From the NCBI RefSeq assembly GCF_003575975.1, contig NZ_QQXK01000001.1, positions 124,001-188,000 on the forward strand: a stretch of DNA of 64,000 bases. The letters are read 5' to 3'. The stretch comes from Galactobacter valiniphilus. Its GTDB lineage: Bacteria > Actinomycetota > Actinomycetes > Actinomycetales > Micrococcaceae. A model generated the notes under the pieces. The model worked only from the letters and a program-made list of their open reading frames with translations. It did not search any database and was not told where the DNA came from. The position numbers and the translations under genes were made by a program. Positions 35,137-36,654 of the stretch are shown piece after piece. The first letter of the stretch is position 1, and every line of letters begins with the position of its first letter.

Positions 35137-35176
35137 CCGCGGGGGAGCAACGATCGGGATCGTTGCTCCCCCGCGG
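35137..35176. terminator. 19-bp perfect hairpin between the metallophosphoesterase and the small peptide gene
   Basis: Arms 35137-35155 and 35158-35176 (core GGGGGAGCAACGATC) are exact reverse complements. It lies 9 bp past the stop of the minus-strand 32-codon gene and 136 bp past the plus-strand gene, so it can end both transcripts. Confidence 0.75.
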
Positions 35177-35185
35177 TGTGTCGCG

Positions 35186-35284
35186 TCAGGCGGCGTGCGG
35201 CCAATCGCCGATGCCGCCAAAGCCGAGGCGACGGGCAGACGCCGCGGCGTGTGCCCCAAGGTGGTGCTCAGGGGTTGAGAACAT
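35186..35284 (-). CDS. 32-residue peptide gene divergent from an XRE-TPR regulator (candidate signal peptide)
   Basis: The ATG at 35284 has AGGAGG 8 nt upstream (35293-35298), the strongest ribosome site in the neighbourhood, and the frame closes at 35186 just before a 19-bp hairpin. The peptide begins MFSTPEHHLGAHAAASARR and ends LGFGGIGDWPHAA: positively charged and His-rich first half, then a Gly/Trp hydrophobic end. No hydrophobic signal sequence and no cysteine. I do not recognise a family. Its position head-to-head with a regulator of RRNPP-like architecture suggests a signalling pro-peptide; a small leader or DNA-binding cofactor peptide is also possible. Confidence 0.6.
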   Translation of the reverse strand: MFSTPEHHLGAHAAASARRLGFGGIGDWPHAA

Positions 35285-35302
35285 GGGGGATCCTCCTAGG
35301 TG

Positions 35303-35337
35303 ACACTGTGACGAATGACAGTGTTAGTCAACAGTGA
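35303..35337. promoter_or_regulatory. Operator-like ACA-N-TGT repeats in the divergent regulator/peptide promoter
   Basis: ACACTGT (35303-35309) and its reverse complement ACAGTGT (35318-35324), with a third partial copy ACAGTGA (35331-35337). The minus strand has TTGACT (35331-35326) as a possible -35 for the peptide gene, but the -10 position (CAGTGT) is poor and lies within the first repeat, as expected for an activator-dependent or repressed promoter. Confidence 0.55.
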
Positions 35338-35412
35338 TCCACGAAGTTCGTCAAGGGGTCAAAGGTATGACAGGATCGCCACAGACTTGACACGAACACT
35401 CAGGGGGAGCAC

Positions 35413-36654
35413 ATGGGCTTGAAGTTTGGCGACAAGTTGCGCCGCGCACGGATGGATCTGGGGTTGACCCAGTCGCAGCTCGGGGCGCAGAAATACTCCA
35501 CTAGCTATATTTCTCTGCTCGAGACCGGTAGCCGCGAACCGACCCCGGAGATCATCACCGAGCTCTCCAAGCGCCTCGGGATCGAGCGCGACGTCATGGA
35601 GGCCTGGAACACGCCCGTCTCCCCCGACGAGGCCCAGTTCGTCCTCCTCGAGCACCGCGCCCGCGCCTCGATGACGGCCCACGACTACTCCGACGCGTGC
35701 GACACCGCGGCCGAGGCCGCCGAGCTGGCGCAGTCCATGAAGAACTCCTCGGCGTGGTGGAACATGAGCTTCCTGCGGGCCGAGGGCCTGCGCGAGCTCG
35801 GCCGTATGGAGGACTTTCTCCGCGCCGCCGACGAGGTCCTCGCGCACCCTCTCACCGACGAGTCCGAGGCGCTCAAGGTGCGTGCCGAGACCCTCGTGGC
35901 CTCCGCGAACCAGGGCGCCGGCCGGCTCTACCTGGGCGTCGAGCACGCCCTCAAGGCCACGGCCCTCGCCGAGGACTCCCTGCCCGCCGCCTCCCTCTTC
36001 GCCATCGAGGCCCGCTTTGCGCTCATCGCGTGCCTCGCCGAGTCCGGCCAGCTGGACGAGGCCTGGCGCGCGTGCCAGCGCCTCGACGAGGTCGTCAGCG
36101 GCGACGTCCCGGCCCAGAGCGCTGGTGCCGCGCACTGGGCCATCGGCAACGTGGCCTTCCTGCGGCAGGACATCGACGAGGGCCTGCGCCACCACAACCT
36201 GGCCGCCGAGCGCCTGCACCCCCGTTCCGACATCGAGCTGTGGACCCGCTTCAACAAGGCCTCAGCGAGCGCGCGCATCAGCGCCGGTGCCGTGGAGCCC
36301 GCCACGCTCGCGTGCATCGAGCGCGCCGAGCAGGCCCTGTCCGTCATCGGCGACCTCGGCACCGAGGGCCTCGAGCTCCAGGTCATCCGCGCCCGCTGGC
36401 AGCACGTCAACGGCGACGCGGCCGGCGCACTGCTCGCGCTCGAGCCGGTCCAAGACCGCCTGGGAGAACTCCCCCAACAGGTCAAGGGCGAGGTCGAGCT
36501 GCTCACGGGCCGCTGCCAGCTGGCCCTCGGCGAGCTCGACGACGCGCTCAAGCACCTCAACGCCGCCCGCGAGGACTTCGTGGGCGCCGGGGCCCCGGAG
36601 CGCGCCGTGCTCGCCGTGGAGCTCGCCACGCAGCTGCGCGCCACGCGCCGCTAG
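35413..36654 (+). CDS. XRE-family regulator with C-terminal TPR-like helices (RRNPP-like architecture)
   Basis: 413 residues. Residues 5-60 are an XRE HTH: FGDKLRRARMDLGLTQSQLGAQKYSTSYISLLETGSREPTPEIITELSKRLGI. The remaining ~340 residues are all helical, with alternating Ala/Leu/Glu pairs resembling tetratricopeptide repeats (for example AWRACQRLDEV, AHWAIGNVAFLRQDIDEGLRHHNLAAE, LTGRCQLALGELDDALKHLNAAREDF). This is the layout of Rgg/PlcR/ComR-type peptide-sensing regulators, though in actinobacteria some have other roles. ATG at 35413 with GGGGGAG upstream. Divergent from a 32-codon gene. Confidence 0.85.
   Translation: MGLKFGDKLRRARMDLGLTQSQLGAQKYSTSYISLLETGSREPTPEIITELSKRLGIERDVMEAWNTPVSPDEAQFVLLEHRARASMTAHDYSDACDTAAEAAELAQSMKNSSAWWNMSFLRAEGLRELGRMEDFLRAADEVLAHPLTDESEALKVRAETLVASANQGAGRLYLGVEHALKATALAEDSLPAASLFAIEARFALIACLAESGQLDEAWRACQRLDEVVSGDVPAQSAGAAHWAIGNVAFLRQDIDEGLRHHNLAAERLHPRSDIELWTRFNKASASARISAGAVEPATLACIERAEQALSVIGDLGTEGLELQVIRARWQHVNGDAAGALLALEPVQDRLGELPQQVKGEVELLTGRCQLALGELDDALKHLNAAREDFVGAGAPERAVLAVELATQLRATRR

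Follow-up and report, generated by a model that had tools for sequence, protein, structure and literature searches.

A candidate peptide pheromone and XRE-TPR receptor pair in Galactobacter and its relatives among the Micrococcaceae

A gene of only 32 codons and the regulator gene that diverges from it are likely, in our judgement, to encode a peptide pheromone and its intracellular receptor, working like the RRNPP systems. Both lie within the 64,000-nucleotide stretch of Galactobacter valiniphilus DNA that was analysed (hereafter the window), where an earlier note had proposed a candidate peptide-sensing pair. That proposal is now supported by a xWP core that recurs beside related regulators, by co-distribution and co-variation of this core with the receptor clade, by a near-unique operator-like site between the two genes, and by a predicted TPR fold in the regulator.

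The head-to-head layout described in the earlier note is borne out. The proposed leaderless precursor gene occupies positions 35186–35284 of the minus strand (ATG at 35284, stop at 35186), and the XRE-TPR regulator gene occupies positions 35413–36654 of the plus strand (ATG at 35413, stop at 36654, 413 amino acids). The product of the small gene is MFSTPEHHLGAHAAASARRLGFGGIGDWPHAA, with the core GIGDWPHAA at its C-terminus, and the single Trp previously pointed out there is the W of the shared core. The frame lacks a hydrophobic stretch and is not preceded by an in-frame leader, and its product is not hydrophobic (best 12-residue hydropathy 0.46). An AGGAGG ribosome-binding site is indeed present at 35292–35297 on the minus strand, although it lies 7 nucleotides 5′ of the ATG rather than 8; AGGAGG is also found in locus L062, and a weaker AAAGG in L063. 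The reported terminator is a GC-rich hairpin at 35137–35176 (minus strand; z −7.2 against dinucleotide shuffles, with a counterpart at z −7.8 in L062), which does start 9 bp past the peptide stop. However, its stem is 18 bp instead of 19, it has no U-tract and it is absent from the terminator-scan list, leaving it a possible terminator. The pair is surrounded by genes for a transglycosylase, a metallophosphoesterase and convergent purine enzymes. A motif test recognised the convergent purC end behind 31 of 49 receptor loci of the HTH type, which indicates that this is mostly a core chromosomal locus.

Judged alone, the small ORF is no better than chance, since the combination of AGGAGG with a start codon 5–10 nucleotides on occurs 18 times in the 64-kb window, the peptide gene included. 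In a plain similarity search against 197 genomes of the family, the peptide gave matches with E <0.001 only in its own genome, G040 and G064, and the matches at E 0.005–1 fell mostly inside long unrelated frames. What lifts the ORF above chance is that its core is shared beside homologous regulators. Of 120 family genomes drawn evenly, 53 have such a homolog, representing 16 of 32 genera, and the remaining 67 gave no match at 1e-10. Beside the homologs in Micrococcaceae, the divergent small gene is usually a Sec-like precursor that ends in, or repeats, a G/N-x-W-P core, for example GNWPDP, VGDWPH, GIWPN, NNWPL or GWWPN. Most relatives carry one to eight core copies per precursor, and tandem cores include AIGNWPDPM five times (L041), VGDWPH eight times (L036), VGEWPH twice (L035), VGIWPN twice (L042) and ATGNWPN four times (L052). 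The core in L105 and L107–L109 is NNNWPL; degenerate units also occur (GNLPDPM in L045, GNWADQ in L111). The sister genera g17 and g30 have VGDWPH or VGEWPH repeats behind a Sec-like leader (L035–L038), and the GIGDWPHAA of the window is the same core without leader or repeats, matching the VGDWPHA units of a sister genus. Conservation of the C-terminal residues beside orthologous XRE-TPR genes, a check set in advance, was thus observed both within the genus, where LGFGGIGDWPHA is protein-identical in G040, and as cores in other genera, the more distant ones having GNWPDP and its variants.

The strength of this association can be judged from 76 fetched loci, which hold 77 receptor frames of at least 80 bits and include near-identical species, so that the counts are not independent. 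Under a precursor rule that called for a ribosome site, a length of 15–140 amino acids and a start no more than 450 bases from the receptor, a divergent ORF with [GN]xWP was present at 50 of 77 loci, compared with 1.3 expected from dinucleotide shuffles, 0/77 upstream on the same strand (within 450 bases and also within 700), and 2/77 and 1/77 on the two strands downstream. Plain WP was found in divergent ORFs at 52/77 loci (same-strand upstream 2, downstream 11 and 5, shuffles 6.85), and two or more WP at 28/77 (0, 1 and 1, and 0.3, respectively). A Sec-like leader, defined by a rule of K/R plus a hydrophobic stretch, was encoded by the divergent ORF at 40/77 loci, against 2 on the same strand and 0.8 in mononucleotide shuffles. 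We therefore reject a chance ORF, as both the [GN]xWP and the Sec-like divergent ORFs lie far above the shuffle and same-strand controls. Two of the 50 ORFs with [GN]xWP (L060 and L080) look accidental or weak and are probably not pheromones, and the rule missed 11 further precursors. By hand, a precursor was assigned at 59/77 loci in 15 of 16 genera (33/49 of the HTH type, 25/26 of an HTH-less type, and one fragment). No convincing xWP precursor was assigned at 16/49 HTH-type receptors; these are all five of g24, second copies in g19 and g31, extra copies in G084, L080, and L032. L095 and L098 of g31 are HTH-type receptors without a xWP precursor that have a GGDEF/GGDDF motif downstream on the opposite strand.

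The regulator itself was previously described as an XRE HTH followed by TPR-like helices, and this description stands. In Pfam it matches HTH_3/HTH_31 (E about 1e-8), and its TPR matches all stay below threshold. AlphaFold2 predicts a wholly helical protein in which a TPR-type superhelix begins near residue 70 (mean pLDDT 84 for the whole regulator and 90.7 for the TPR part alone). Among 28 family members, HTH_3 is recognised in 27 and TPR_12, at up to E 0.1, in 20, while the TPR columns W242, G245, F249, H261 and W277 are 96–100% conserved across 28 receptors. The G. caseinivorans regulator is 65% identical to that of the window. Profile A2 ranked PlcR first among RRNPP chains (E 6e-11), yet with the HTH (4–57) as the best-matching stretch and behind four designed PPR chains; ComR is among the profile hits via its HTH, and the TPR-only profile A3 matches only generic TPR and other helical proteins. 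Structure alignment of the predicted TPR domain placed NprR (5dbk; Z 21.3, rmsd 4.8, 311 aligned) and Rap (4gyo; Z 21.3, rmsd 5.3, 314 aligned) highest among the RRNPP receptors listed, below eukaryotic LGN (6hc2, Z 26.9) and others at Z 22–27. PlcR (3u3w) appears in the Foldseek list at E 9.9e-5 and is absent among the best 50 VIA-align rows, and the named hits in a viral fold library were TPR-like plus assorted proteins of no bearing. Because LGN and other TPR proteins align as well or better, the fold is no proof of kinship with RRNPP receptors. The predicted fold permits peptide binding without proving membership of the RRNPP family. The earlier characterisation of an RRNPP-like pair is accordingly upheld as a working likeness, which the shared core supports, whereas sequence kinship beyond the HTH is not established.

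We built a quick receptor tree from the TPR part only (75 rows, long branches flagged), excluding L096 (a broken frame) and L104 (a fragment) both from the tree and from the 26 HTH-less loci. The five-letter core type requires 22 changes on this tree, compared with a mean of 36.9 and a minimum of 34 in 300 label shuffles over 58 rows. The residue before W changes 13 times (22.7 when shuffled), as does the residue after P (25.5 when shuffled); the core labels were hand-assigned from script output, and rows marked x were excluded from the residue-after-P test (51 of 58 kept). HTH presence changes once. This shows a peptide-receptor pair that is inherited and diverging together, and since shared ancestry alone makes neighbours alike, the co-variation speaks for joint inheritance, not binding.

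Between the two genes, the ACA and TGT repeats noted before resolve into a perfect inverted repeat, ACACTGT-N8-ACAGTGT, at 35303–35324 (no strand assigned), with a third ACAGTG at 35331. We propose that the repeat is a receptor operator lying over the peptide promoter, whose putative −35, CTTGACG at 35349–35355 (minus strand), is paired with a weak −10 beside the inverted repeat. A sigma-70 scan gave no promoter at this CTTGACG, which nevertheless resembles the CTTGAC(A/G) at the same place in other genera. In genome G000 the perfect repeat occurs at the window locus only, and in G040 and G064 at the same locus only; three of the four Galactobacter genomes thus have one, and a genome scan found none in G010. 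Many other genera have the intergenic sequence TTGACANNNATTGTAAA (receptor strand) in the place that ACACTGT-N8-ACAGTGT occupies in Galactobacter, and it contains the −10-like TACAAT of the precursor promoter. Among 25 genomes picked for carrying the receptor, TTGACANNNATTGTAAA has 17 occurrences, a single one per genome in 17 genomes and always between precursor and receptor. Because the pattern was derived from these intergenic regions, finding it there is circular, which does not apply to its scarcity elsewhere; part of the site is no more than the −10 of the promoter. The reversed pattern was found 0 times in the same 25 genomes, and the 8 genomes missing the exact TTGACANNNATTGTAAA are of g7, g17 and g30. 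With two mismatches allowed, ten genomes yielded one further site versus two for the control.

The confinement of the operator-like site to this locus suggests that the peptide gene is most likely under the control of its neighbouring regulator, and the pair probably autoregulates. In a search for regulon targets, two-mismatch operator hits per strand, perfect sites included, numbered 4 in G000, 1 in G010, 3 in G064 and 4 in G040, and the reversed pattern gave 1, 5, 1 and 2, respectively. As the hits are at the level of this control, no target is claimed beyond the pair. One two-mismatch operator-like site is shared by G000 and G040 (L188:1501-1522 and L187), not above the control rate; the genes downstream of it, first a short-chain dehydrogenase and then a Dps-like one, are named by eye.

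By sequence criteria, Galactobacter is a leaderless variant of the precursor-receptor family. The window peptide differs from that of G040 by five amino-acid changes, four of them in codons 1–18 and the last A32D. Codons 19–31 (RLGFGGIGDWPHA) are unchanged in protein, and because their DNA is itself 38/39 identical, selection on protein over DNA is not proven within Galactobacter alone. In G. caseinivorans there is only a 16-codon frame, MRNFVSFISGRVNWPF, ending RVNWPF. In G064, a Galactobacter metagenome bin, the receptor is 97% identical, and the C-terminal half of the peptide and the hairpin have been lost; the alignable part of the peptide gene reaches codon 16, with a stop two codons further on. 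The lost segment maps to L061:4600-5000, the same place as L032. This single bin may come from a lineage that is blind to the signal or eavesdrops, or the loss may be an assembly artefact. The loss in G064 and the short G. caseinivorans frame, taken with the leaders and repeats present in sister genera g17 and g30, would also fit a decaying remnant of a Sec-leader repeat precursor, in which case the receptor would hear the peptides of others or some other input. We regard this as unlikely, as the frame, ribosome site, hairpin and exact core are all kept in G040. Moreover, genus g32, in a separate receptor clade, has leaderless genes of 19–21 codons that end exactly at VGDWPD. The leaderless state requires two changes on the receptor tree (Galactobacter and g32), against 6.8 in shuffles with a minimum of 5. 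Together, the g32 precursors and the conservation in G040 indicate that the leaderless form recurs and is kept.

Leaderless genes could instead encode a private intracellular co-regulator, a microprotein ligand without any role in cell-to-cell signalling. Both Galactobacter and g32 lack a leader, and no EcsB/PptB-like exporter was found in Galactobacter, Pfam PF05975 being absent in 4/4 genomes (n=14 controls, with matches in B. subtilis and L. lactis). Set against this, the precursors beside sister receptors combine a Sec-like leader with tandem units, which speaks for export, and PMC9765709 describes the export of short Rgg precursors in streptococci, making a purely private ligand quite improbable. 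An antimicrobial or structural role of the small secreted xWP proteins, under a regulator that responds to another cue, would explain the divergent promoter region common to the two genes, but is very unlikely given that the core type tracks the receptor clade, including HTH-less receptors without a recognisable DNA-binding head, that very short leaderless versions exist, and that TPR superhelices commonly bind peptides.

For a pheromone and its receptor, our favoured reading, the following sequence of events can be envisaged. The small gene would give rise to a precursor whose signal is the C-terminal core around GIGDWPHAA. This core would be exported, trimmed and then brought back into cells, presumably by an oligopeptide importer of the SBP_bac_5/Opp type, 12 SBP_bac_5 proteins being encoded in the genome. 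Another export route would be needed in Galactobacter, because its precursor has neither leader nor repeats. Once imported, the core would sit in the groove of the TPR superhelix of the regulator and shift the XRE head on the proposed operator ACACTGT-N8-ACAGTGT, which lies across the peptide promoter, and the pair would thereby autoregulate. Positive feedback is a common design. For this pair, we infer export, maturation, import, binding, sign of regulation and density dependence.

One branch of the receptors has no HTH. Its members start where the HTH would end and retain their own precursors, and Pfam detected no HTH in the 13 that were scanned. At 15/26 HTH-less loci (14 genes) the receptor is followed downstream by a same-strand GGDEF motif, versus 0/49 of the HTH type, for which 2/49 have one downstream on the opposite strand; at five of the 15 (L087, L092, L094, L100 and L101) only the GGDEF motif was within reach. 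Pfam scans of ten neighbour proteins from six regions identified four, from four regions, as GGDEF plus EAL, and the other six as two histidine kinases, two tRNA synthetases and two CBM5_12 proteins. An EAL motif is found upstream in tandem at three more loci and in none of three HTH-type regions. This arrangement suggests pheromone control of c-di-GMP via HTH-less receptors by a Rap-like route, a link that would join peptide quorum sensing to c-di-GMP.

Individual loci of this branch differ in their layout. Same-strand GGDEF-EAL genes stand behind HTH-less receptors with xWP precursors at L199:8483-11128, L200:6062-9102, L201:4692-7932 and L205:4444-7668. In L066 (G098:C1:1946200-1951990), two tandem HTH-less receptors share one downstream GGDEF-EAL gene, each with a precursor of its own (IDDWPH, and VGNWPG twice). 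At L202:8694-10256 and L203:8353-9915, HTH-less receptors adjoin a convergent CBM5_12 gene, and no GGDEF motif was found downstream.

Beyond the Micrococcaceae, another family of the same order yielded two precursors, with VGGSWPT three times and with SDTWPA; no precursor was found for two other receptors of that family (L126 and L138). In a search at class level, which scored few candidates per genome, 17 loci were examined for precursors, and a Sec-like divergent ORF was present at 9, against 1 on the same strand and 0.14 in mononucleotide shuffles. Their cores are DIGWPTP/GDIGWPVP, WCC (three, one with five more residues after it), CC (three), FGWNHPG and AWNGPW, and Pfam found HTH plus TPR in 10/10 class- or order-level regulators scanned. 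Divergent Sec-like ORFs ending in WCC or CC are those of L146, L149, L144, L150 and L152, together with L148, which ends near it; it is possible that these small ORFs are a second type of pheromone. L143 has a same-strand gene ending SIEWP. A profile of the HTH-less receptors found matches in 3/198 genomes across other phyla, with no new family beyond f17.

Phage origin and plasmid spread are rejected on the following searches. Scanning IMG/VR with A2 turned up five pattern matches, none of them a relative (one peptide pattern, hence weak evidence), no relative of the L044 receptor was found among 50,697 phage records, and 13 TPR-only members had no match in PHROGs. As for spread by plasmids, the one match to the L044 receptor was a Streptomyces plasmid gene with 29.7% identity over 79%, and the three divergent frames upstream of that gene contain no WP.

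We lean, by a little, towards the view that the Actinomycetota have a large pheromone system of their own. It would comprise XRE-TPR receptors with divergent secreted precursors, of the xWP type in Micrococcaceae and relatives or of the WCC/CC/WNxP type in other families of the class, together with an HTH-less branch acting on GGDEF-EAL enzymes by protein contact. If true, this would be a Rap-like design with a second-messenger output. The peptide-receptor family is chromosomal and spans 15 genera of a single actinobacterial family, and its core, legible at about six residues, offers a signal that can be tested directly in these bacteria.

RRNPP-type signalling has been described for Bacillota, and actinobacterial quorum sensing is typically based on small molecules, according to the portion of PMC10075063 consulted. 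The earlier note had held that RRNPP systems are little described in actinobacteria; in agreement, a literature search of open-licence papers, preprints excluded, found no account of these cores or of actinobacterial RRNPP systems. The family resembles the RRNPP(A) systems of Bacillota (PlcR-PapR, NprR-NprX, Rap-Phr, AimR-AimP) in its adjacent small Sec-type precursor and in a TPR receptor of 250–500 amino acids with or without an N-terminal HTH, the window receptor having 413. An adjacent precursor gene of 10–100 amino acids, as in RRNPP(A), is represented here by the 32-codon gene, and the N-terminal XRE-type HTH of the subfamilies other than Rap is also present in the window regulator. Tandem core copies likewise occur in Bacillota RRNPP precursors, as stated in excerpts of PMC10075063, PMC9765709 and PMC11343458. 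The differences are the host, a member of the Actinomycetota, the recurrent W-P core, and the lack of a match to any RRNPP-specific family.

Closer parallels exist for particular features. The ComR-ComS and Rgg-SHP systems of streptococci have very short leaderless precursors with a C-terminal signal, as is proposed for the window peptide, and some ComS signals contain WW. Unlike those precursors, the peptide of the window lacks hydrophobic character, and the Galactobacter genomes yielded no EcsB-type protein; Rgg precursors are short, hydrophobic and exported by PptAB in streptococci, as a section of PMC9765709 describes. The TPR-only branch is like Rap-Phr in being HTH-less with the precursor neighbour kept (25/26 loci by hand). 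Rap acts on sporulation and competence regulators, whereas the neighbours of the HTH-less branch are GGDEF-EAL c-di-GMP enzymes. Finally, in contrast to the phage-borne AimR-AimP arbitrium system, the window locus is chromosomal and lies beside purine genes.
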